Source of the DNA: a virus
Virus record (IMG/VR): IMGVR_UViG_3300000929_000239
Span: 1-54,772 of that record
Reading direction: 5' to 3' (one strand)
DNA: 54,772 nucleotides
In this document: piece after piece, positions 4,600 to 19,609 of the stretch
How the letters are laid out: every line of letters starts with the position of its first letter
Numbering within the stretch: the stretch's first letter is position 1
Translations under genes and position numbers: made by a program
The notes under the pieces: generated by a model
Databases searched by the model: none
What the model saw: the letters and a program-made list of their open reading frames with translations, nothing else
Told to the model about the DNA's origin: nothing

Positions 4600-6069
4600 C
4601 TATCCAAAAACCAAACCTGCAGCCCAATGTAAACCCCAAGCTACAAATCCTGATGACCCGGTATAACCACGTGCACCACCTGGACCTGGTCCCCCTGCAG
4701 GACCTGGTCCTCCCGTATTACCTTTAGAGCCAGTGTAGCCGCGAGGACCTGCTCCTCCGCCAGGCCCCGGTCCTCCTGTATCGCCTTTAGAACCGGTATA
4801 ACCGCGTGGTCCACCTGGACCGCCTGGTCCGCCTGGTCCTGGCCCTCCTGTATCACCTTTAGAGCCTGTGTAACCGCGTGGACCTCCTCCGCCGGTATCA
4901 CCTTTTGAACCAGTATAACCACGTGGGCCGCCAGGACCGCCAGGACCGGCAGGACCTCCTCCGCCGGTATCACCTTTTGAACCCGTATAACCTCGTGGAC
5001 CGCCCGGACCGCCTGGTCCGCCTGGACCTGCTCCTCCGGTATCGCCTTTTGATCCGGTATAGCCGATGGGCCCTTGAGGACCAGTTCCTCCGGTATCGCC
5101 TTTAGAGCCTGTAAAACCAATAATGCCTTGATTACCTTGAGATCCAGTGTAACCAATGATTCCTTGGGAGCCTGTAAAACCAATAACGCCTTGAGGACCG
5201 GTACTACCTTCAGAACCAGTATAGCCGATAATTCCTTGAGAGCCCGTAAAACCAATAACGCCTTGAGGACCGGTGCTACCTTCAGAACCGGTATATCCTA
5301 TAGGACCGATATCTCCGGTATCGCCTTTAGAACCGGTATAACCAATGATTCCTTGAGATCCAGTGTAACCTATAATACCCTGTGATCCGGTATAACCAAT
5401 AATTCCTTGAGATCCAGTAAAACCGATAGGACCGTTAGTTAAGAAACTAACTACTAGATTTGAATCATTACCTATTGACCCAAGTTGACCAGAAACATAA
5501 GTCACTGTAAAAAACTTACCGTTTCCAGCAGTTTGAACACTGCCAGTTATTTCATATATTAAATAATCGCCAGAATTTACATCGTCACTTTTCAGTAGTA
5601 GCTTACCTCTACTAGCACTAGTTCCGCTATCATCCCACGTATCAATATAAGATCCCCAAGAAGCTCCGTTATTAGCATTTTGATGTAAACCAATTTGTGT
5701 TGCACTCGCAAGTGTTACATTATTAAACAGAAGTTGTCCCGCAACTGTATAAGATCCACCGGTAGAAGTTGCTGTGGTACCTGTATCTACCTGATAAACG
5801 TTTCCAGAATTAGCACCAGAGCCAGTAAATCCTCTAGAACCCGTAAACCCTAATGAGCCATCATCCCCTTTAGAACCTACAAACCCTAATTCACCTCTTG
5901 AACCAGTAAAACCTGATCCTTTAGAACCAGTAAAACCTTGCGATCCAGAATATCCAAAGTTTGCTTGAGTTACCCATGAGGTGCTTGCAGAATCATAAAC
6001 CCAATCTACAGAGTTTTGAGAATATGTATCACCGTTTGCTGGATTAGGTGGAAAATTTAGAAATGCCAT
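4600..6069 (-). CDS. Collagen-like tail fibre protein (489 aa)
   Basis: The N-terminus (MAFLNFPPNPANGDTY...WVYD) is the short attachment module seen on many phage fibres (NFP..P.NG..Y). Two Gly-X-Y blocks follow, ~40-92 and ~215-472, split by a globular insert of about 120 residues. The repeats are built from G-Y-T-G-S-K-G-D-T-G and G-P-G-G-P-G-G-P-R-G units, which should form a collagen-type triple helix and hence a homotrimeric rod. The C-terminus is a short hydrophobic cap (FVAWGLHWAAGLVFG) rather than a folded tip, so the tip may come from one of the small downstream proteins. Located 3 bases after the 1736-aa gene. Fibre role is well supported; the binding target is not. Confidence 0.85.
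   Translation of the reverse strand: MAFLNFPPNPANGDTYSQNSVDWVYDSASTSWVTQANFGYSGSQGFTGSKGSGFTGSRGELGFVGSKGDDGSLGFTGSRGFTGSGANSGNVYQVDTGTTATSTGGSYTVAGQLLFNNVTLASATQIGLHQNANNGASWGSYIDTWDDSGTSASRGKLLLKSDDVNSGDYLIYEITGSVQTAGNGKFFTVTYVSGQLGSIGNDSNLVVSFLTNGPIGFTGSQGIIGYTGSQGIIGYTGSQGIIGYTGSKGDTGDIGPIGYTGSEGSTGPQGVIGFTGSQGIIGYTGSEGSTGPQGVIGFTGSQGIIGYTGSQGNQGIIGFTGSKGDTGGTGPQGPIGYTGSKGDTGGAGPGGPGGPGGPRGYTGSKGDTGGGGPAGPGGPGGPRGYTGSKGDTGGGGPRGYTGSKGDTGGPGPGGPGGPGGPRGYTGSKGDTGGPGPGGGAGPRGYTGSKGNTGGPGPAGGPGPGGARGYTGSSGFVAWGLHWAAGLVFG
4650..5440 (-). repeat. Collagen-coding imperfect tandem repeats
   Basis: The DNA coding the second Gly-X-Y block is a mosaic of imperfect direct repeats whose units are multiples of 9 bp (one GXY triplet), often 27-54 bp. 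The G+C-rich units coding GPGGPGGPRG stand out against the AT-rich surroundings. Such repeats invite in-frame expansion and contraction. Confidence 0.8.
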
Positions 6070-6072
6070 ATA

Positions 6073-9000
6073 TTAAGTCCCCGCGACTTTGCCTTTAAAG
6101 TTTCTTTCAGGATCGAATTCTACAAAAACGCCAGAAACGTCTTTATCCCAAGTTGCTTCTGAGTATCCTGTTACTAAGAAACTAGAACCGTTATTATCTA
6201 TACTGTATGAAAAGTCAGAAGAACCAGAACCAACTTGGTACTTAGACCAACCTTGGTAATTACCTAATCCATCAGAATCAAAATCAAATATACCTAGACC
6301 CATATCTTTTAATCCAAACGTATTCGCATCATCAGCAAATGCACCAGCAGTATTACAAACAACTCCGATTCTACCATCTAGTAGCTTAGAACTAGCTTTT
6401 CCGTTTTGTTCTATTTCTTCAGACGTTTCTGAACCTGTTTGAAAGCCGTTAGACCAAATATCACTATCATAGTTGAAAGTAATAATACCAATATCTTCAG
6501 ATCCAAATGTTTGTGCATTGTTTACTGAGCCAAAAGTAGTATATGAAATGGCTAATGAATTAGGTAGAATTTCATTTATATCATGTAGATTCATACCTTT
6601 GTCATTAAAACCAGAACCTATGTTATAGTATTCAGCATTCCAAGCCCTAGGATTAAATATTCCTAAAAATATATCATAGCCGCCAAATTGTGTTCCGCCT
6701 GCTAAATTACCTGTTGTTCTACCAGTAAAGGCAATGTGACCTTTTTTGGCTCCGCCTGATCCTGTTGAAGTCTGAATCCAGAATGGATGTGCTCTATTAT
6801 ACACAGTGAAATTAATTGTGTCACCCGTATCTATAGTTATAGTTGGGTTATTTACTGCAGGATTAATGTTACCTACTCTATCTGTTCCAGAGAATCTAAA
6901 TGCAAGAGGTACATTATCGTACATAGCAGTAATGTCAATTGATGATGTAGATCCTTGTACGTCTTGGACTACAATTTGTCCATTCATAGAACTATGATTA
7001 CCACATTGATAGTAGTAAGTACCTGCTACGGTTGGTGTCCAACTTACTGTACCTGCAAACCCGCCGTTGTTTACTGCTTCTGGGTCTGTGACTGCTTTAG
7101 ATGTTCCTTCTAGCTCTGTAAGGGCATAGATTTCTTCATCACCGTCATCACCGTTTTGCCATAATCTAAACTCACTGCTTGCGATATCCCACTGAGCTAA
7201 GTAGTAGTCATAAACTCCTGATAAGCCTGTGTTTGTTTTAGCTATATTACCAGAAACCTGACCACCAATATAGTAGTATTCTCCGTCTGAAGATTTTATG
7301 ACATCGTAAGCAAATACGTTACCATCATCTGCAGTCGCATCGCCTACAGTAGAAATCTGGTGTATTTGAAACAGATTATCTGCTCTATGAATAATATTAC
7401 CTGCGGCTTTTTCTTTTCTATATGTTTCAGTATTCAGGAATTCTTGTAAATCATCTTTATCTACAATAGCCATAAATCCAGTGAATAGACCGTTTGCGCC
7501 GTAAGACCCGTTATATTCTAAACCGTAGTATGATCCATCTATCAGTGACGTTCCTATATCACTAGAAGTGTATAATGCATCATTGTATGTTGGATTTGAA
7601 ACTTCTACCTTAGTAGTTTCTATAGCAGTTTCGTTAATAGTATTAATAGTAGCTGAATCATAATAATATGCATTGGAAGTAGAAGCTGTAGTGTGATAAA
7701 CACCTGTTCCCCAACCTTCTTTATCACCTCTAAACAATACTCCGTCTTTACCCTGTGAGTGAGATGTTGAACCTCCTACTGTAACAAAATTACGAGTAAG
7801 ATGATCCCAGACAATATCTTTCCCTATATTATCTTCACCCATGTGGCCCAAAGTATTATTAAAATATATTGATCCATCATTAGTGTTAATGCCGCCAAGG
7901 AGAGTATCAGCCCTCATAAGAGTCCCGCCGTCACTGTCCATATTTAAACCAGTACCAGTAAAGATTACTCTATGATTTCCATTATGAAACTCTTCATCTT
8001 CAAAGAACCACCACGGCCTGCTGTCAGAATCTTCTACTAGCAAGCTATTAACTTCTTCAAAATAACCCAATGGAGAATTAATTTGTTTTGACCATTCAAC
8101 GTCAACAACATAGCTTGCGCTATCAGCTATTTTTACTTTTTGCATTATTGCAAAAGAACTATGTCCTCTTTCTAGCATCATAGCACCCATAGTACCGCTA
8201 TAATCTTCTGCGCCTGAAGCTAGAGATGTGTCTTCTTTCTTACCACCTAAAATTAGCTCGTGTGTTGACAAATCAGAATCGTATTTTATTAAAGCTATAT
8301 CAAGCCATGCTGCCTCATACTCATCCCAACTTTGAGCATCTGATAGTGTATTGTTCGAATAGTTAATATATTTTACAAGATTAGCATCACTTATAGAAGC
8401 CATTCCCCATGCAGGACTTCTGTGAACACTTCCAGCACTGCCATTAGAAACTGAACCGCTAAAGAAGAATTTTCCGGTATCATCTCCACCAGCTACTACA
8501 TTATTAACATACATGCTAATATCAATACCGATTTCACTCAAATCTCTAGTAGATGTAGTATTACCATCAGTGTCAATTACAACTAACGCACCGCCCTTAA
8601 AATCTCCAGTATCAGCAGCTGAGTTGTGTAGGAATGTCGCAATATATAATGTGCCTGAATTTTTAACTAACGTAGCAGAGGTTGGTTTAATATATAAGTT
8701 AGACTGAGATAATTTTTTTGACCAAATAATAGTATCGCTTGAATCAATTTTTACAATTATAGCTGAGCTATAAGGAAAGCTTTCATTATATGTGTATCCT
8801 ACGACGTATTTGTCACCTGTGGCTTCATCGTGCAATATATCCACGCTGACATCATTTCTAAAACCAATATCTATTTTTTTAGATGAGCTTAACGTAAAAT
8901 TCTTATCGTAGTTTGCTAAAAACAGTTTACCGTCTAAAGTGTCAGTTCCAGCTACAGTATAATCACCATTATTATCTCTTATGATAGATTCAAAACTACA

Positions 9001-11283
9001 ACCTGAAGAATCAACAGTGTTGCTAAATCTTCTAGCCCAGCCATGCACCCACTGTTTAGATTTGTCGGCTAGCTCACCTTTTGCATAACCTGATAATACT
9101 AGCTTATTATTTTCAACATCTTCTATAATACCTGTAACAAAGTCGTCACCTTCTAGTCCATAACTATAACTTACAGAGTTGTTTTCATTATCTACGATAG
9201 TAAGAACCATATCTCCAGATAATTCATTTCCTAAATTACCAGGAGCATTTTCTACTCTGCCTACAAGAGCTTTTCTTCCATCTGATAAGTAAATACCTTG
9301 GAAGTAATATTCGGTCGATCCGGTATTAATTTCTTTTCTGTTATAGAATTGTGGAGAAGCTATATCCCATTGAAGAATGCTAGTACCATTTGGAATACCT
9401 TCTGGTTCTAACTGGTTTTTTCTAGTAACTATACCGGTTGCATTATTGTATGATAAATGACCAGATGTATTGCTATTACGATTAATAAACCCACCTGTTG
9501 TCGTTTCATAGTCTAGATGTTCATAACCGGCAAAACTACCACCGGCCAAATCCCAACTGTATAAGCCATCGCCGCTGTAGGTTCCAACTCCATCGTCTCC
9601 GCTTAATAGTGTAAAGTATTTAGTATTTTCTGCATTGTATTTAAAACCATGCACTCTTAGAGGGTTGCTTGGCGGATTCGTTACGATGTTACCTTCAAAA
9701 CTGATGTCTCCGCTGGAATCAATCTGAGTATCAAAGCTGTACATCTGAGCGCCGCCGGATTGACCACCTGCAGCTGTGATATAACCGTTTGAACCCACAG
9801 ATGTAATTAAAGCACTAGGATATACGTCTGTTCCTTCAAAAGGATAAGGCATATTAATACGTTCTAAAGTACCAGGAGAAATAGTATTAGCGTCTGTTAC
9901 TCTCCATATCTGAAGATCGGACGCAGTAGAAAGTTCGGAGACAACAATCTCGCCGTACATACCATTATGCACCGTACAGAAATAGTAATAAGTTCCTGCA
10001 CTTTGCGGTGTAAATGTTACAGTATTAGTACCGTTACCTGAAGATCCTGGAGCATTAATTCCACTAGGGCTTCCGCCATTGTCTGTGAATACATTCATAG
10101 GATGCACGTTTAAAACTAGGTTAGTGAAAACCATAGTGTCGCCAACCTTCATAAGAATATCAGGTTGAATTGCTACCCCATCAAGAGTTCCTGGTTCTTG
10201 TCTATCTGTACCTAATACTTTATACTTATTTGCCTGATTGTTTAGTTGAACTGTAAAACTTTTCGGTTGTGCCTGCATAACAACAGGCCAGTAGATATAA
10301 GATCCAAACGTATGTCCGCTACTTATAGAAAAAGTGTAATCTCTTTGTACGCCTTCAGCTTCTTCGTTACCTCCAGGATAAGGATTAAAGGTAGGTTTTT
10401 GTATTTTAAAATCACCATAATTAACTTGAGCAGTGAAAGAACCTGAAGAAGATGTAAATGTTCTAGAATAAACAGTCCATTCACTATCAGCGTTATTTGC
10501 ATCTTCTAAATAAAATGCATGGAATCTATTTGAACTACCTTTTAAAATTCCAGCTGGAAGATAATTAATTCCGGCCTGATTAGGAAGCGTAACGTCATTG
10601 TGTGAGTTATGTGCACCACCAACTGATGGAGTATGGATTCTTGCTAGAGGTACCGAGTAGGCCAAGCCGCCAGACTTAACTAGGATATTAATCATATATC
10701 CGTACTGTTTATCAGAAGGCCTAATAAACCCATCTGATCCCCAGGTTAATCTACCATCATCAAATTTAGAATAGTTAGAAGGTAAGTGCTTGTGATATTG
10801 GTAGTATTCCCACTCGTCGCCTTGATTTCTTTGATACATTCTATCCCAATAGAATGCGTCATCTTCGAGATCCCCGCCACCTCCAACGCCGTTGTTACCA
10901 TATTGACCAATGTGCGAAAACATAAATGCATCGTTTTCAGAAACACCTGTAATATCATTGGAACCAGTACCAATGTGCTGGCCAGCTCCACCATGATATT
11001 TTTTTGCGGTTCCGTCCCAAGTCTCGCTAATCCAAGCAAAAGTTCCATCGGTTTCAGCATAAGTAGGCTCACTACTATTTAAATAATAAGAAGCATCTAT
11101 ATGTAAAGCCGAATCCCATTTATATAGTTCAATAGCATTACCAGTTTGCGTAGTATTATTAACTATATCGGCAGGATGATACACATACCAATAGCCATTA
11201 TCAGCGATATGGTGCTGAACAGGTAAACCCAGAAAATCTGAATCTACTAAGGAAACTTCTTGTGTTAGATTAGCAATAGCCAT
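6073..11283 (-). CDS. Giant virion protein with propeller-like repeats and cupredoxin domains (1736 aa)
   Basis: One intact frame of 1736 codons. Residues ~330-448 form a cupredoxin (blue-copper) domain with ligand set His394, Cys436, His439 and Met442 (YYYFCTVHNGM). Residues ~450-1400 contain many loosely repeated blades of the type G-x-Y-x-V-A-G-T/S followed by D-x-x-x-x-W-S-K, as in SBBP-type beta-propellers. A second cupredoxin is present in swapped order: Cys1427-x2-His1430-x2-Met1433 comes first and the His-containing half (RAHPFW, His1499) follows. The C-terminal ~230 residues add further G-D-I-G-I/L-I-F-strands. Neighbours are fibre proteins, so it is probably a virion fibre or adhesin. 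No symbol can be given. Copper binding is inferred from ligands, not shown. Confidence 0.75.
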   Translation of the reverse strand: MAIANLTQEVSLVDSDFLGLPVQHHIADNGYWYVYHPADIVNNTTQTGNAIELYKWDSALHIDASYYLNSSEPTYAETDGTFAWISETWDGTAKKYHGGAGQHIGTGSNDITGVSENDAFMFSHIGQYGNNGVGGGGDLEDDAFYWDRMYQRNQGDEWEYYQYHKHLPSNYSKFDDGRLTWGSDGFIRPSDKQYGYMINILVKSGGLAYSVPLARIHTPSVGGAHNSHNDVTLPNQAGINYLPAGILKGSSNRFHAFYLEDANNADSEWTVYSRTFTSSSGSFTAQVNYGDFKIQKPTFNPYPGGNEEAEGVQRDYTFSISSGHTFGSYIYWPVVMQAQPKSFTVQLNNQANKYKVLGTDRQEPGTLDGVAIQPDILMKVGDTMVFTNLVLNVHPMNVFTDNGGSPSGINAPGSSGNGTNTVTFTPQSAGTYYYFCTVHNGMYGEIVVSELSTASDLQIWRVTDANTISPGTLERINMPYPFEGTDVYPSALITSVGSNGYITAAGGQSGGAQMYSFDTQIDSSGDISFEGNIVTNPPSNPLRVHGFKYNAENTKYFTLLSGDDGVGTYSGDGLYSWDLAGGSFAGYEHLDYETTTGGFINRNSNTSGHLSYNNATGIVTRKNQLEPEGIPNGTSILQWDIASPQFYNRKEINTGSTEYYFQGIYLSDGRKALVGRVENAPGNLGNELSGDMVLTIVDNENNSVSYSYGLEGDDFVTGIIEDVENNKLVLSGYAKGELADKSKQWVHGWARRFSNTVDSSGCSFESIIRDNNGDYTVAGTDTLDGKLFLANYDKNFTLSSSKKIDIGFRNDVSVDILHDEATGDKYVVGYTYNESFPYSSAIIVKIDSSDTIIWSKKLSQSNLYIKPTSATLVKNSGTLYIATFLHNSAADTGDFKGGALVVIDTDGNTTSTRDLSEIGIDISMYVNNVVAGGDDTGKFFFSGSVSNGSAGSVHRSPAWGMASISDANLVKYINYSNNTLSDAQSWDEYEAAWLDIALIKYDSDLSTHELILGGKKEDTSLASGAEDYSGTMGAMMLERGHSSFAIMQKVKIADSASYVVDVEWSKQINSPLGYFEEVNSLLVEDSDSRPWWFFEDEEFHNGNHRVIFTGTGLNMDSDGGTLMRADTLLGGINTNDGSIYFNNTLGHMGEDNIGKDIVWDHLTRNFVTVGGSTSHSQGKDGVLFRGDKEGWGTGVYHTTASTSNAYYYDSATINTINETAIETTKVEVSNPTYNDALYTSSDIGTSLIDGSYYGLEYNGSYGANGLFTGFMAIVDKDDLQEFLNTETYRKEKAAGNIIHRADNLFQIHQISTVGDATADDGNVFAYDVIKSSDGEYYYIGGQVSGNIAKTNTGLSGVYDYYLAQWDIASSEFRLWQNGDDGDEEIYALTELEGTSKAVTDPEAVNNGGFAGTVSWTPTVAGTYYYQCGNHSSMNGQIVVQDVQGSTSSIDITAMYDNVPLAFRFSGTDRVGNINPAVNNPTITIDTGDTINFTVYNRAHPFWIQTSTGSGGAKKGHIAFTGRTTGNLAGGTQFGGYDIFLGIFNPRAWNAEYYNIGSGFNDKGMNLHDINEILPNSLAISYTTFGSVNNAQTFGSEDIGIITFNYDSDIWSNGFQTGSETSEEIEQNGKASSKLLDGRIGVVCNTAGAFADDANTFGLKDMGLGIFDFDSDGLGNYQGWSKYQVGSGSSDFSYSIDNNGSSFLVTGYSEATWDKDVSGVFVEFDPERNFKGKVAGT

Positions 11284-12636: not shown

Positions 12637-13848
12637 CTATCCATTAAAACTTACGTTAATGCTTACTTCGTCCACTAAGCCTAATGGGTTAGTAACTTCT
12701 GCCCAGATCCACCGACCAGCATCTATAGTAGCATTAGAAATACTGCCAACGTTTCCACTAGTTGTACTATTAATCGTGCCAGAAGTTATCAGAGTTCCTG
12801 AAGAGCTTCTATCAGAATCATACTTAAGAGACATGCTCACACTTGATCCAGGGTAGCTAACTATTGATCTTACTTCAGAAACTATCATCTGCCTATCAGT
12901 ATACATTAATGTTTGCTGATCGCCTGAATCTGGTGCTTGGAAAGAAATAACACGAGGACCGTATACACCCTGAGAACCAGTATAGCCAACTGAGCCAGAA
13001 TAGCCTCTATCTCCATCAGATACTGTAGGATCTGCTTGCAGCACCCATTGCGACTGACTTGTCGAGGGATTAGTATAGTAGATATATGATTTCCCAGTGT
13101 TTGAATTGTACCAAATTTGACCGGCTGTAGGATTAGCCGGAACATTTTCACCTTGAAATATAGCCCCAGCAGATCCTGTAAATCCTCGTTGAGATGCACT
13201 TGCGTCTACCCACTGAGCACTAACGTCAGCTGCATCAACTACTATAATTTGGCCTTGCATTGATGGATGGGCTGAGCAGATATAGTAATATGTTCCTACG
13301 GAATTGAACTGATAGCTGATTGTAGTACCGTTATAGCCACCATTATTAGTTACACCTGGAATATTATAGAGGGCATCATATGAGTTACTAAGACTTAACT
13401 GAGAAACTAAGAAGAACGGGTGAATTGCTGTAGCACTATTAACTACATTTAGTGTATCACCTTTATATATGTAAATAGTAGGATCAGGGTCGCTCGAGAA
13501 CGTAGAACTTCTATCGCTACCAGTAAACAAATAATCTCCTGATTGTGCATTTGTTTGTGTAGCTGCTAAATTAATTGCTGCGGCTGCTGGAGTTGGTTCC
13601 CCATAGTAAATTTTTAACTTACCGTTTACTGCATCCCACCATAAAGAACCATCTTGCAACGAGCTAGTAGGAGCTGCAGAATCTGTTTCCGCACCTCCAC
13701 CTGAAATACTTGAAACAGTATTAGATGAGGTTTTATAGTACAATCTACCATCGGCGTAGTTTAAAGCAACTTCGCCGTAGTCCAGATCTCCAGTTCCAGG
13801 AATCTTTCCAGAGACCGCGGATCTTTTTAGTTTTATATTTGCTGCCAT
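12637..13848 (-). CDS. Tail fibre protein with cupredoxin domain (403 aa)
   Basis: The N-terminus (IKLKRSAVSGKIPGTGDLDYGEVALNYADGRLYY, read in two pieces) is the common phage-fibre head in which a G-E-x-A-L-N-x-A-D-G-x-L-Y turn is diagnostic. Residues ~95-205 form a cupredoxin domain with His143, Cys191, His194 and Met197 (YYYICSAHPSMQG), all four type-1 copper ligands in amicyanin spacing. A short GXY stretch (GDRGYSGSVGYTGSQGVYG) follows near 280-298, then a globular C-terminal domain. A late promoter lies ~60 bases upstream at 13910-13917. Fibre role is firm; copper binding is inferred from ligands. Confidence 0.8.
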   Translation of the reverse strand: MAANIKLKRSAVSGKIPGTGDLDYGEVALNYADGRLYYKTSSNTVSSISGGGAETDSAAPTSSLQDGSLWWDAVNGKLKIYYGEPTPAAAAINLAATQTNAQSGDYLFTGSDRSSTFSSDPDPTIYIYKGDTLNVVNSATAIHPFFLVSQLSLSNSYDALYNIPGVTNNGGYNGTTISYQFNSVGTYYYICSAHPSMQGQIIVVDAADVSAQWVDASASQRGFTGSAGAIFQGENVPANPTAGQIWYNSNTGKSYIYYTNPSTSQSQWVLQADPTVSDGDRGYSGSVGYTGSQGVYGPRVISFQAPDSGDQQTLMYTDRQMIVSEVRSIVSYPGSSVSMSLKYDSDRSSSGTLITSGTINSTTSGNVGSISNATIDAGRWIWAEVTNPLGLVDEVSINVSFNG

Positions 13849-13921: not shown

Positions 13922-16900
13922 TTAATATGTACCGCCGTCAATAACACCATCAATTAATCCTGCTACTTTAATACCTCCTGGAGTTGACCACACGCGTCCT
14001 CCTCCTGTCGTATTAGTATTGGCTGAATTACCCATGTATGGATGATTTAAACATTGGTATGCTATAGTTCTTGGTCCGTAGTCGTGAACCCTAATTTGAG
14101 CGTAAGAGTTTCCTACGTTTTTATCTCCAGCCGTTCCTACATAAGATATAGTAGCCGCACTATCAGAGATAAGTCCATTCTTCGCATCATCATAGTAGAA
14201 CCTAACATCGTGAGTGCTCATTGATGAATCGTGCATATGGAATTTGTATGTAACACCTGGTGTTAAATCAAGATGTGGAGCCTCGAGTGTGTAACCATAG
14301 CCACTTCTTATATAATCAGAATCGTGAGATATGTAATATCCCTTTAATGAACCATTACCATAGTACCTATGGTCTGTCGTTTTAAAATCAGATCTCATAT
14401 AGAAATTAACAATAGGATCGCCAAATGAATCGTGATCGCCATCATTACTGTTTGGCGAAGCGTCTGAATCTCTATTTTGATATGTTCTAGCAATCATACC
14501 CACTTTAGGAGTCACAGCAAGGTTGCTACCGCTCATACCGGTAATATTTTGAATCCCGCTTAAATAGTTACCAAGGTATCTAGCGGCTAGTCTATTTAAG
14601 CCAATACCTGAAGTATTACCGTATTGGAGGTTTACACCGGTCTCACCAGATATGGCTACATAAGAACCTTCATTGGTAATCCAAGTTGGGATTTTGTAGC
14701 TATCGCCCGCTGGGGTAGTAGTTTGAAATCTAATAGGTCCTGAATTAGATTGATAAAGATCACCTGTGCCGCTTTGGCCAAATACGCCTTTACCTATTTC
14801 AAGCTTCGTGCCAGTCTGAAGAGTAACATCAGCGCCAAATTCGTCTATTACTTCATCAAAAGATCCGCCATCAGCCGTAGATACGTTGTAAGTATTAGTA
14901 GCAGGTGTCCATGATGTAGAAGAAACCCCTGCGACACTTACTGTAGTTGCACTGGTAATTTGACCTTGATCATTGATTGTTAATTGCGGTACTGCCGAAG
15001 CGGAACCATATGTATTTGCAGTTACTCCAGTATTAGTAATGTCTATGGTACCAGTCGCGGGAGTATATGTTATCCCTGTTCCGCCGATAAGAGAATTTTT
15101 AGAATCACTATCGGCTCTTGCACTAGTATAATATAGGTTGGTAGAACCTTCTGAAAGATTATCCGTAGACTTAAGTGCCAATCTTACATCAAAATCTGAA
15201 TCAGCTCTTACTGTGGTGTAATATAAGTTGCTACCTTCGGCAACATCACCTGTAGACTTAGTTGCCAGTCTTGTGTCAAAATCTGAATTAGCGCGAGCTG
15301 TGGTATAGTATAGATTAGTTCCCTCTGGTAATATAGTTGTTGATGAACTGCCTAAGTCGCTATCGAAATTAGCCTTACTATAAACTTCTTCAACATCAAT
15401 ACTGATAACACCAGTACTAGAATTATAAGAAAGGTCTCCTGTAACACTAATAGCGTTTTTAGCATCACTATCAGCTCGAGCAGCGGTGTAATAAAGATTA
15501 GTAGAACCTTCTGAAAGATCATCTGTAGATTTAGCTGCAATGTTTGCATCTACTCTAGCATCAGTATAATATAAATTTGTTAGTTCTGGTATTTCAGCAG
15601 TGTTTACAGCTCCTGGAGTTGAGCTGAAATTAATTGTAACAGCGCCGCTTGTTACAGCAAAATCATCACTACTGAATGAGGCAATACCTTTATTAGTATC
15701 GGTTGCATCCTCTCCCTTTATTTCACCCGATGATATATCAATACCCTCACCGGCAGTAAAATGAGCTCTAACTTCAGCAGCAGTAGGACCAGTGTAAGAT
15801 ATTACTCCAGTTGATTCTGTATATGATAAAGAACCATCACCACCGTTATCAGTAACACTAATTGATCTTTTAGCATCGCTATCTGCTCTTGCAGTAGTAT
15901 AATAAAGGTTTGAGCCTTCAGTTAGATTAGTAGTAGTATGATTTGAAATATCAGAAGCTGTACCAGTTAAAGTACCAGTAAATCCCGTAGTCGCTTCAAT
16001 TGTTGTACCAGAAATCTGTTTTGCTCTTAGATCTGCATAAGAGTATGTAGCGTGAGCAGTATTAATACTACCTGATGGTTCGGGCGTATAGTTATCAAAG
16101 AACTTCCAAGTACCGTCTGATGTATCTCTAAACAATCCAGCGTGGCGATAAATATCATCTGGTTCGTTATAGTTACCAGCGAGACCAATTTGAACGTTAA
16201 TCGGTGACGCATCACCTGACCAGCTATCATTAAGATCATGCCCAGTAGCAGCATCAAAGTCTATAGAAACACCATAGCCTAAAGGCGCTATAAGTCCGTT
16301 ATTAGTAAGGTTCCATGTAGATGGGCCTAGTGCAGAATCAAATGGTTGTACACCAGCACCAAAACTATCTAACGCCCATTCAATAGTATCTCCGCCGGTC
16401 GCACTAATTCTAACTCTAAAAGTCTCGTCTGAATCGCCTTTAAAGTGGCCAGTGAATGTAGCGTTTTGGTCGCCAGTACCATTAAAGTTAGTATTACCTG
16501 CACCGATTGTATCACCAGCACCAAGATAGATAAATGTATCCGCAACGTTGAGGTTTGATACCGCAGTACGAGTTTCCGTACCTAGAACGTTTAGGTTACC
16601 ACCGATAGTAAGATCTGCATCTATTCTACCGTCACCTGCAACTCTTAAAGTTTCTACTACTTCTTTTGTAATAGTAACTTGAACACAACCACCAACATTA
16701 TTTGCTTCGGCTGAATCAGCAACCAGAACCGTACCTATTTCAACTGCATAGTTTGGATAAACTGGGTTGTCAGAAATTAACTCACCTGCAGAATCTACTG
16801 ATACGTGTACTACATCGCCGGCTACAAAGTTTTGAGTGTCTAATCCTCCGACTAAACCCCTATTAATTACTAAACCATATTGGCCAGGAGAAATAATATC

Positions 16901-19609
16901 TTTAGTTAAACCTAAAGTTTTGTATACTGTATTTAAACTATTTGCTCTTGCTAGTGCTACAGTTGGGAAGTCATTTGATGCACCAGTTACATAAACTGCT
17001 TTACCTTTATCAATCTGGCTACCAGAGTTATTAAAGACTCTTGTTACTTCTTCTTGTCCCAGTTTTATTACACTTGCAGTAGAAGATTTATATACTAGAG
17101 CATCAGGTCCAGGGTTGTACCATAATCCACCTTCAACTGTTGTTGGAGCACTTCCGTCAGGATAACTAGTGGGATCTAATTCAATATACCCTAAGTTTGC
17201 CCGGCCTGCGTCAATGCTATCTACGGTAAGGTTAGATGCATTTATTTGTGTTATAGATGCAGAATCACTTGTAATTTGTCCTATTGTCGCAGAATCGAAA
17301 ACACCTTGACCAGCTTGTAATTTTATTTTACCTGAATTATGATTTCTCATAACCATGCTGCCATCGCTATCTGCCATGACTAGTGTGCCCAAATAAATGG
17401 AATTACCGCTTAGGTATAAATCTTTCCATTTTTGTGCTGAATCACCTAGATTATAAGCACTATCTGCTCCTGGAAGTAAATGGCCTGTAACAGTAACTGG
17501 ACCGGTAACATCTATTCCTGCATTAAATTTTACTGCAGTACCAAAGCTATCGATTAGAGTATTAAACTCTCCACCATCAGCTGTATTAATTGTTAGTGTA
17601 CTATTAACCCCGCTCCAAGATGTAGAATCAACACCTGCAACATTCACAGTTCCAGCCGCAGTTAACCTACCTTGTTGGTCGACAGTAAATGTAGGAACCA
17701 AGCTAGCCGATCCGTATGATCCTGGAGTCACGCTTGTGTCGTCTAAATTTACTGTATTTGTTGCAGCATCATACGTAAGAGCGGTTCCACCAGATATAGC
17801 AGCGTCAAGGTCTGAATCAAAATTAGCAGCAGAGTATATGCTCTCAACGTCAATGCTAAAATCGCCAGTAGTTGAGTTATATGATAAATCACCGCTTGCA
17901 CTAAGATGACTTCTAACTGCAGAAGCAGATGTGGCATCTCCTAATGCACTATCAAATCTTGATCTAGTGTAATAAAGATTATCGCCTTCTGAAAGATTAG
18001 TAGTGGATTTAGTTGCTAATCTTACATCAAATGCACTATCTACTCTCGACTGAGTATAATAAAGGTTTGTACCTTCAGCAACATCAGTTGTAGTTCTATC
18101 TGCAAATCCTTGGTTAATGTCGGAATCTGTTCTTACCTTAGTGTAATAAAGATTAGAACCTTCTGTAAGATCTGCAGTTGATTTTGTCGTTAGTCTATTA
18201 TCAAAGTCAGAATCGGCTCTCGTAGTTGTATAATAGAGGTTGCTACCTTCTGATAGATCGCTAGTAGTGTTGGATTTTATTTCATCAATATAGAATGTAC
18301 CAACCATAGCGGCATGTATTCCGCACTGATAAACTAAAGTATCGGGTGCATCAAATGGTACCGTGAATGTGATTTGATTAGTACCGTCACCTACTACGCC
18401 TGAAGTATATTGCGTACCTCCGTCTTCCAATCTTATTTCGATAGGATGCGAGCCGTGTGACGGATTATTGATAATATATGTTTTACCACGTTGAAGATAT
18501 ATAGATGGATTATCGCCAGATTGTACAGGGAAACCATCTCCTGTAAATTGATAAGCTCCGCCATTTGCACTTGCTACATCAATTATAACTTCAGCTCTTC
18601 TGATAATTTCGAAAGTGTCATGAGCTGAGTCATAAGTTAAAGTAACTGAAGATTGTAAAGCGTTATCTAGATCTGAGTCAAAGTTACTAGCGTCGTAGAC
18701 TTGAGAAACGTCAACAGAAAATTCACCAGTACTAGAATTATAGACAATATCGCCAGATGTAGAAAAATAGTTTCTAATAGCAGATATGCTAGTAGTATCT
18801 CCTAATGCACTATCAAATCTTGCTCTAGTATAATAAAGATTAGAACCTTCTGCTAAATTACCAGTATTATAAGGATCTAAAGTAATTACTTCGGCAAAGG
18901 TTCCGCCATCTGCGGTACTAATAGTAAACGTACCATTAGATGAATCAAAGTCTATACTTGAAACGCCTGCGACTGCAACCTCTCCGGCTGATTCCACTAA
19001 ACCTAAATCATTTAACTTAAATACCGGAATATTGGTTGCGCCGCCATATGTTCCTGCTGCTGCTCCAGCACTATCTAGAGCTATGTTTAAGTTATAGTCT
19101 AATCCTACTTTTGCGCCAGAAGTAGTTATTCCATTTCCGCCAATAGCATTTACAATTTCATTGCCGTATAGCTCAACAGAATCTATAAATCCTTCATCTG
19201 TTTTAAATTGTAAATTCGAAACTTTTCCTATTTCCGTATCAACATATATCTTAGGAGTAAGGTCATTATTATTAAATACTGAAACGTCATCTACACTAAC
19301 AGTATTAGCTTCTAAATTGCCTGCTATATCTACAGCACCACTTATAGTAGTTGCAGCTGAAGTAATAGTTAGATTATTACCAGACATTGTTAGCGTATCG
19401 CTATCAAACTGGAAATTATCTATATTAAGATTATTAAGAACAGAGGTATTTACAAAGGCGGCCGCTGCAGAATCGTACCTTAAAAGCTGGTTATCAGCTA
19501 AAGATGTTAAAGAAAATCCTGAAAGGTTCTGGATACTGAATGACCCTGAAGTAACATTTCTTAAAGGAGTTCCGACAACAACCTTTTTAATTATAGTAGT
19601 TACTGCCAT
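13922..19609 (-). CDS. Giant tail fibre with NLYYT repeats and two cupredoxin domains (1895 aa)
   Basis: A single 1895-codon frame. It contains 11 copies of a D-L-x-E-G-S-N-L-Y-Y-T-x-x-R-x-D-S-D unit (residues ~250-1495), a repeat seen in fibres of marine T4-like phages. Inserted cupredoxin domains lie at ~355-445 (His388, Cys429, His432, Met435) and ~1785-1865 (His1800, Cys1853, His1856, Met1859). Residues ~735-775 carry the 'NLGDSAQKWKDLYL' segment of fibre shafts, and ~840-1010 a beta-rich globular block (VTRVFNNSGSQIDKGKAVYV). A late promoter precedes the 118-aa gene just upstream. It is a rod-like long fibre component by composition and place. It has no S74 chaperone, unlike the 1462-aa fibre. 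Confidence 0.85.
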   Translation of the reverse strand: MAVTTIIKKVVVGTPLRNVTSGSFSIQNLSGFSLTSLADNQLLRYDSAAAAFVNTSVLNNLNIDNFQFDSDTLTMSGNNLTITSAATTISGAVDIAGNLEANTVSVDDVSVFNNNDLTPKIYVDTEIGKVSNLQFKTDEGFIDSVELYGNEIVNAIGGNGITTSGAKVGLDYNLNIALDSAGAAAGTYGGATNIPVFKLNDLGLVESAGEVAVAGVSSIDFDSSNGTFTISTADGGTFAEVITLDPYNTGNLAEGSNLYYTRARFDSALGDTTSISAIRNYFSTSGDIVYNSSTGEFSVDVSQVYDASNFDSDLDNALQSSVTLTYDSAHDTFEIIRRAEVIIDVASANGGAYQFTGDGFPVQSGDNPSIYLQRGKTYIINNPSHGSHPIEIRLEDGGTQYTSGVVGDGTNQITFTVPFDAPDTLVYQCGIHAAMVGTFYIDEIKSNTTSDLSEGSNLYYTTTRADSDFDNRLTTKSTADLTEGSNLYYTKVRTDSDINQGFADRTTTDVAEGTNLYYTQSRVDSAFDVRLATKSTTNLSEGDNLYYTRSRFDSALGDATSASAVRSHLSASGDLSYNSTTGDFSIDVESIYSAANFDSDLDAAISGGTALTYDAATNTVNLDDTSVTPGSYGSASLVPTFTVDQQGRLTAAGTVNVAGVDSTSWSGVNSTLTINTADGGEFNTLIDSFGTAVKFNAGIDVTGPVTVTGHLLPGADSAYNLGDSAQKWKDLYLSGNSIYLGTLVMADSDGSMVMRNHNSGKIKLQAGQGVFDSATIGQITSDSASITQINASNLTVDSIDAGRANLGYIELDPTSYPDGSAPTTVEGGLWYNPGPDALVYKSSTASVIKLGQEEVTRVFNNSGSQIDKGKAVYVTGASNDFPTVALARANSLNTVYKTLGLTKDIISPGQYGLVINRGLVGGLDTQNFVAGDVVHVSVDSAGELISDNPVYPNYAVEIGTVLVADSAEANNVGGCVQVTITKEVVETLRVAGDGRIDADLTIGGNLNVLGTETRTAVSNLNVADTFIYLGAGDTIGAGNTNFNGTGDQNATFTGHFKGDSDETFRVRISATGGDTIEWALDSFGAGVQPFDSALGPSTWNLTNNGLIAPLGYGVSIDFDAATGHDLNDSWSGDASPINVQIGLAGNYNEPDDIYRHAGLFRDTSDGTWKFFDNYTPEPSGSINTAHATYSYADLRAKQISGTTIEATTGFTGTLTGTASDISNHTTTNLTEGSNLYYTTARADSDAKRSISVTDNGGDGSLSYTESTGVISYTGPTAAEVRAHFTAGEGIDISSGEIKGEDATDTNKGIASFSSDDFAVTSGAVTINFSSTPGAVNTAEIPELTNLYYTDARVDANIAAKSTDDLSEGSTNLYYTAARADSDAKNAISVTGDLSYNSSTGVISIDVEEVYSKANFDSDLGSSSTTILPEGTNLYYTTARANSDFDTRLATKSTGDVAEGSNLYYTTVRADSDFDVRLALKSTDNLSEGSTNLYYTSARADSDSKNSLIGGTGITYTPATGTIDITNTGVTANTYGSASAVPQLTINDQGQITSATTVSVAGVSSTSWTPATNTYNVSTADGGSFDEVIDEFGADVTLQTGTKLEIGKGVFGQSGTGDLYQSNSGPIRFQTTTPAGDSYKIPTWITNEGSYVAISGETGVNLQYGNTSGIGLNRLAARYLGNYLSGIQNITGMSGSNLAVTPKVGMIARTYQNRDSDASPNSNDGDHDSFGDPIVNFYMRSDFKTTDHRYYGNGSLKGYYISHDSDYIRSGYGYTLEAPHLDLTPGVTYKFHMHDSSMSTHDVRFYYDDAKNGLISDSAATISYVGTAGDKNVGNSYAQIRVHDYGPRTIAYQCLNHPYMGNSANTNTTGGGRVWSTPGGIKVAGLIDGVIDGGTY
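15100..18870 (-). repeat. Eleven NLYYT-unit repeats in the 1895-aa fibre gene
   Basis: On the minus strand, eleven imperfect units coding E-G-S-N-L-Y-Y-T-x-x-R-x-D-S-D occur in two clusters, 17,940-18,870 (five copies) and 15,100-15,910 (six copies). The clusters are separated by unrelated fibre sequence. Neighbouring copies are ~80-90 bp apart. Confidence 0.8.

Follow-up and report, generated by a model that had tools for sequence, protein, structure and literature searches.

A probable natural circular permutation of a cupredoxin domain in a tail-region protein of a T4-like phage

Main finding and gene setting

In a 54,772-nucleotide stretch of viral DNA (IMG/VR record IMGVR_UViG_3300000929_000239, hereafter 'the window'), a 1736-residue protein of the tail region (6073..11283, minus strand) has, according to its translation, one cupredoxin domain in normal order and a second one whose halves are swapped. 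We consider it highly probable that this second domain, residues 1396-1512, is a naturally circularly permuted cupredoxin, which is the best explanation of the data when taken together with the fold, role and origin proposed below. A first-pass annotation, made from the sequence alone, had already read the stretch as an apparent circular permutation. This reading is supported by the effect of rotating the domain, by reversed two-piece matches to solved structures, by a confident structural model, and by the order of the halves in 21 of 21 contigs that contain the site.

The gene lies in a tail cluster together with genes of baseplate wedge, hub/lysozyme and tail-tube-cap families. The normal-order cupredoxin of the same protein (about residues 337-451, with His394 and Cys436; 9931..10275, minus strand) matches Pfam Copper-bind with an E-value of 1.5e-9. 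Motif placement and domain comparison identified normal-order copies in two neighbouring proteins, of 403 residues (13231..13557, minus strand) and 1895 residues (18278..18598, minus strand), which we used for comparison. The 1895-residue protein (13922-19609, minus strand) also has a second cupredoxin-like stretch near its C-terminus (residues 1800-1859), with the motif CLNHPYM. The ligand His is followed by Pro in three of the window's other four cupredoxins, and this second copy, the fourth, has His-Asp instead. In these four domains the His precedes the Cys by 42, 41, 48 and 53 residues, as the previously given range of 41-53 correctly states.

Layout of the permuted domain

The permuted domain (about 6748..7098, minus strand) was delimited by motifs, conservation among contigs, a structural model, profile matches and rotation. 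Its C-terminal half comes first (residues 1396-1441; 6961..7098, minus strand), begins with KAVTDPEAVNNGGF (1396-1409), and comprises what we take, by analogy, to be strands 6-8. This half contains the C-x2-H-x2-M ligand loop with Cys1427, His1430 and Met1433 (6985..7005, minus strand), which is invariant in the 21 contigs with the site. A linker of about six residues (about 1442-1447; 6943..6960, minus strand), placed by the rotation test and by comparison of linkers, connects the former C-terminus with the former N-terminus; the motif VQGSTSSIDITAMY occupies residues 1442-1455. The N-terminal half follows (residues 1448-1512; 6748..6942, minus strand), with RAHPFW at 1497-1502 and TSTGSGGA at 1505-1512. 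The fourth copper-site ligand, His1499 (6787..6789, minus strand), lies within RAHPFW, and its His-Pro pair is kept in all 21 contigs. The translation thus bears out the order of motifs that had been reported, with the Cys/His/Met half first and His1499 later. The range originally given, 6775-7080, has the right location and clips the domain at both ends.

When the end of the second piece is rejoined to the start of the first, the spacing from His to Cys becomes 45 residues, within the range of the other copies. The equivalent spacing is 44 or 45 in all 11 distinct permuted domains of this family, in which the linkers are about 4-8 residues long, and none of the 21 contigs with the site lacks any of the four ligands (His, Cys, His and Met). 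The permutation has moved the chain ends to the loop that connects the His strand with the following strand. The canonical order of strands along the chain is not found in the window domain, whose halves are swapped; we therefore classify it as a circularly permuted cupredoxin and not as a standard member of the cupredoxins.

Rotation restores the match to normal-order cupredoxins

We built a profile from 13 normal-order cupredoxins, of which 12 come from the neighbouring proteins and other phages and one is residues 337-452 of the window protein, and scored every rotation of each domain against it. In its native order the window domain scored 49 bits over one half only. Rotated at the linker it scored 99.5 bits with nearly the full model covered, which is no chance match and agrees with the earlier proposal that joining the pieces recreates the usual domain. 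Ten window-type domains behaved likewise: in native order they scored 44-64 bits with half of the model covered, and with the best cut, at or near the linker, 89-119 bits with nearly all of it covered. Seven domains of a second, subtilase-type family described below rose from 64-74 to 89-105 bits. For twelve normal-order controls, each scored against a profile built without it, the largest gain from rotation was 2.3 bits (P0001_436 is a profile seed and hence was not used as a control). A match to a whole-domain cupredoxin profile was thus obtained only after rotation: cutting at the old termini restores homology over the full length, and without rotation the halves match in reverse order.

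Searches against solved structures gave the same picture. A profile of the permuted domains was compared with all PDB chains. Its matches to auracyanin A (E 0.0033) and to amicyanins (E 0.016 and above) each fall into two pieces of reversed order; on auracyanin A, profile positions 31-67 align to residues 99-138, and positions 105-149 align to residues 32-77, a piece that is weak alone. These two proteins are the nearest solved ones by sequence, both halves of the window domain align to their matching halves, and the amicyanin alignments contain a C-x2-H-x2-M loop as in the window domain.

The plastocyanin/azurin family (Pfam PF00127, Copper-bind) has the same ligand set of His, Cys, His and Met. 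The window domain differs from this family in that its halves are reversed, it lies within a host domain of a phage protein, and its native score, 18.3 bits over the C-terminal half only, is below the cut-off of 21.2 bits. After rotation it scored 23.2 bits over positions 15-99, above the cut-off. Three other rotated window-type domains scored 14.2, 16.7 and 18.9 bits, such that one of four of this type passes; with two rotated subtilase-type domains, of which one scored 19.0 bits and the other (L128_A) had no match, one of six rotated domains overall is above the cut-off.

The swapped order is shared by independent assemblies

Two cupredoxins in one protein might mislead an assembler, and the first-pass annotation had asked for misassembly to be excluded. 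We looked at relatives found with residues 1513-1736 as query; these residues are outside the domain, so that the scan is blind to the domain itself. Among the 22 contigs found, 21 contain the site (the other, L034, is truncated, lacks the site and was left out of the counts), and all 21, from 21 IMG metagenomes, have the Cys/His/Met half followed by the His half in the same place. They comprise 11 distinct domain sequences, whose pairwise identity has a minimum of 43% and a median of 53%. One contig from another metagenome, IMGVR_UViG_3300005941_000013, shares 99.9% identity with the window along 18.5 kb, and its halves are swapped likewise. Crude dN/dS values in six pairs were 0.01-0.25, with synonymous sites near saturation in several. 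A related permuted case occurs in seven records of the cultured phage S-CAM1. Since independent assemblies share the swapped order, misassembly is excluded, and a chimeric contig has a practically negligible probability. The swap of halves is real and old, and the circular permutation has been stable in evolution.

Structure models

An AlphaFold model of the permuted domain, made with 11 aligned sequences, is a single all-beta domain (pLDDT 84.1, pTM 0.76). The structure prediction that had been suggested as a check thus yielded a confident single-domain model, a result that concerns the overall fold. In a search of BFVD with this model, the S-CAM1 protein was the sole match under E 0.001 (E 4e-6, rmsd 2.7, 93 columns). 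None of the 138 matches from a Foldseek search against the PDB was under E 0.001, and the 50 matches listed include no cupredoxin. VIA-align 2 gave ten rows with Z of 2 or more, none with Z 5, which were mostly fibronectin-III-like and reached Z 2.7. Both programs align in sequence order and therefore may miss a permuted fold, so these searches are proof neither way.

We propose that the chain would fold into one closed cupredoxin, which would keep a type-1-like Cys/His/His/Met site with a short loop of the amicyanin type. That the two pieces belong to different domains, which had been named as a finding that would refute the permutation, appears unlikely from the sequence, because the pieces rejoin into one complete domain. 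Adhesins of phage tails are often trimers, and the two pieces might instead pair between the subunits of a homotrimer, in which case the order along the chain would have no meaning for folding. Against such a subunit swap, the linker has only about 4-8 residues, the single-chain model is confident, and rejoining gives a loop of the usual length, with His and Cys 44-45 residues apart, in all 11 distinct domains; we regard the swap as very improbable.

The insertion site and relatives in which it is empty

The domain around the insert (residues 1163-1736; 6076..7797, minus strand) is predicted to be a beta-propeller. In VIA-align 2 its model resembled CylK (Z 23.1, rmsd 3.8, 306 aligned) and, at Z about 17, PLL-type lectins. 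This model is weak overall, with a mean pLDDT of 53, and most of the inserted domain has values of 68-90 by blocks of ten. The gene had been called a fibre gene, which is a loose term: it is indeed part of a tail gene cluster, but the C-terminal domain that surrounds the insert is a predicted propeller. A Foldseek search of BFVD with the same model found other propeller-like proteins with high rmsd and was set aside.

Within the predicted propeller, the permuted module occupies a hairpin turn. The first arm is the strand EEIYALTEL (7111..7137, minus strand; model strand 220-228) and the second is GHIAFTGR (6718..6741, minus strand; model strand 355-362), both of which are supported by relatives that lack the insert. 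The two ends of a loop are close together, and a permuted module with its ends there therefore fits the turn of a hairpin.

These relatives were found with residues 1-330 of the window protein as query, which matched 22 contigs. Three of them, 37% identical to the window protein where aligned, encode full-length proteins without either cupredoxin, and a scan with this empty-site clade added one further contig (L223), giving four proteins of 1391-1401 residues. Where the window protein has ALTELEGTS, the permuted domain and then KKGHIAFTGR, they have a plain hairpin turn, ALTELANGKIAFVGR or a close variant, with the hairpin ALTEL-ANG-KIAF or a close variant of it. The normal-order domain is missing from them too, and they read FPVILNNVSSGFDLEIW or a close variant at its position. 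The other 19 contigs of the scan all have the normal-order copy; 18 include the second site, and in 18 of 18 the domain there is permuted (L161 ends before the second site and was left out of this count). All four empty-site contigs come from one metagenome, and the domains may therefore have been lost, so that the empty sites may reflect loss and not primary absence. Residues 1513-1736 and the empty-site protein L171 had no match in the collection of annotated phages, and residues 1300-1736 had none among plasmids; thus, more outgroups were not found there.

A second permuted family in S-CAM1 and its relatives

Neither the empty sites nor a second family with a different cut had been foreseen by the first-pass annotation. 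Synechococcus phage S-CAM1 encodes a subtilase-like protein of 751 residues (L039:2407-4662) with a Peptidase_S8 match, annotated as 'putative proximal tail fiber protein'. It contains YWYQCTAHPNM, a linker, an N-terminal half with THPFEI and then the strand DVVW, in this order, which is that of a permuted cupredoxin. The stretch is present in seven of seven S-CAM1 records.

Like the window family, this family has a permuted cupredoxin with four ligands inside another domain, and a relative with an empty site (L149). It differs in its host domain, Peptidase_S8, in having up to two permuted copies, and in its cut, which comes after the next strand, between HPFEI...GDVVW and YWYQC. The cut is about 20 profile positions further on than in the window type: native profile matches end near model position 68 in the window type and near 89 in the subtilase type.

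Among the IMG/VR relatives of the S-CAM1 protein, some carry a single permuted copy, and others have two, which lie at different sites and are cut at the same point. A scan with the S-CAM1-type domain found 42 contigs, 38 with permuted and four with normal order. Two copies are present in 13 of the 38, one copy in 24, and only the second site in L217, where the contig is cut. The 22 IMG/VR subtilase loci have 28 permuted domains, each with HPF downstream (28 of 28); L149 and L150 show none. We also noticed that the S-CAM1 protein reads VDIVTLES at what is presumably the position of the usual catalytic Asp of subtilases, so that the enzyme is possibly inactive or relies on a different residue.

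Normal-order relatives and known permutations

A scan with the C-terminal half, linker and N-terminal half as query retained the best 80 of 141 relatives. Within these 80, 21 loci are of the window family and permuted; among the other 59, the N-terminal half precedes the C-terminal half in 58, and in L106 the contig is cut and only the C-terminal half is visible. In annotated phages, the order was determined in 11 stretches from ten species (S-CAM1 twice), which are a part of the phage records matched; S-CAM1 is permuted and nine species are normal. The order is normal in all five bacterial loci, each of which is from Bacteroidetes.

The closest sequence relatives are the cupredoxins of P-SSM2, AG-345-E02, S-H9-1, S-CAM4, ACG-2014e, P-HM1, Sf-CH5 and others, and those of marine Bacteroidetes. 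These normal-order domains share motifs around SGTDRNG, HPFxI and YYYxC with the permuted ones. They differ in that the N-terminal half precedes the C-terminal half, in the nine phages other than S-CAM1 and in five of five bacterial loci. The normal-order cupredoxins of marine Bacteroidetes (L175-L179) are close to the phage domains, and four of them are in small open frames of 134-155 residues.

A circularly permuted azurin has been engineered, in which the ends were moved and the copper site was kept. In both this man-made protein and the window domain the ends have moved; the permutation in the window is natural and conserved.

In the literature that we covered, which included few subscription papers, we found no natural permuted case, either in work on permutation of cupredoxins, azurin or blue-copper proteins or in work on cupredoxin or plastocyanin domains of phage tails. 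The parts seen of PMC4532836, PMC3143127, PMC12051499, PMC3037559 and PMC8115048 likewise yielded no natural permuted cupredoxin.

Origin of the permutation

We propose that the starting state would have been a head-to-tail duplicated cupredoxin, and that loss of the first N-terminal half and the last C-terminal half would have left the C-terminal half, linker and N-terminal half in this order. Head-to-tail arrays with short linkers from C- to N-terminus occur in L071 and L096 and also in L219, there inside a subtilase-like protein that has an empty site of its own, and we therefore favour this route. The route by duplication and partial loss that had been suggested from the sequence is thus plausible. 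No tandem-array intermediate was seen inside the propeller site among the contigs with the site. In the arrays of L071 and L096, later copies lack the Cys (YYYQSS and the like). A different arrangement occurs in L070, L072 and L123, where cupredoxins are nested: a complete one lies inside the N-terminal half of another, just before His-Pro, giving the order N, N, C, C.

The cut unit might instead have been a DNA circle, excised from an array or from one copy, that entered at a codon within a loop, with permutation and insertion being one event. This one step would explain why both permuted families are inserts in other domains, and would account for the same cut at both subtilase sites, which a copied cassette would also explain. 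Against it, the copies at the second site could equally derive from the first. Flanking repeats were looked for at the window junctions and none were found, nor was there an integration signature, and we consider a circle unlikely.

The two permuted groups might have one origin or two. In trees of 90 and 47 domains, with the permuted ones rotated, both groups are monophyletic, each with full bootstrap support. The best trees do not make the two groups sisters and place normal-order domains between them, but the deep forks are weak, and an AU test did not reject a single clade of all 16 permuted rows (p 0.4). A profile-profile alignment of the two groups runs through the linker (99.7%, E 3e-26, 103 columns). 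Either there were two permutations, or one array fragment had its doubled strand trimmed at opposite ends; the sequences are compatible with both. Under a single origin, the propeller and S-CAM1-type modules would come from one ancestral piece of an array, consisting of C-terminal half, linker and N-terminal half. The AU test, the alignment and the BFVD search, in which only the S-CAM1 protein matched the domain model under E 0.001, speak for this. However, any two cupredoxins with linkers of similar length would align likewise, the cuts are about 20 profile positions apart (near 68 versus 89), the modules sit in different host domains, and the groups are apart in the best trees. A common ancestral piece is thus a serious possibility, though one that falls somewhat short of being probable.

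Possible function and wider meaning

The permuted domain would serve as a decorating module on a propeller at the virion surface, where a metal-stabilised domain would add surface for adhesion. We likewise propose that the propeller with its copper-type domains would be exposed on the virion and have a role in adhesion or stability. The strict conservation of the ligands suggests that the metal site matters, with copper as the putative metal.

As a tentative and rather doubtful generalisation, marine phages could share a pool of cupredoxin decorating domains that recombination spreads through tail and protease genes as units cut from arrays at any point. Permuted forms would then arise repeatedly, with different cuts, since a unit cut in a loop fits the hairpin of another domain, and virions would bear natural permuted type-1 copper sites.

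We judge natural permutations for which empty-site, occupied-site and normal-order relatives are all available to be rare. In this protein family the same kind of domain occurs once normal and once permuted, each as an insert, and relatives have neither; therefore, both the route by tandem duplication and the link between permutation and insertion are testable, and the family is a natural test of protein domain rearrangement. Moreover, standard profile scans miss or halve permuted domains, and copper-type domains in phage proteins are therefore undercounted.

The tail region also varies in another gene. A collagen-like protein with GYTGS repeats, encoded next to the 1736-residue protein (4600-6069, minus strand), has 489 residues in the window. 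Its counterpart at 17489-19324 of contig L002 has 611; the adjoining 18.5 kb of that contig are 99.9% identical to the window, so that this collagen-like tail gene varies in repeat length.
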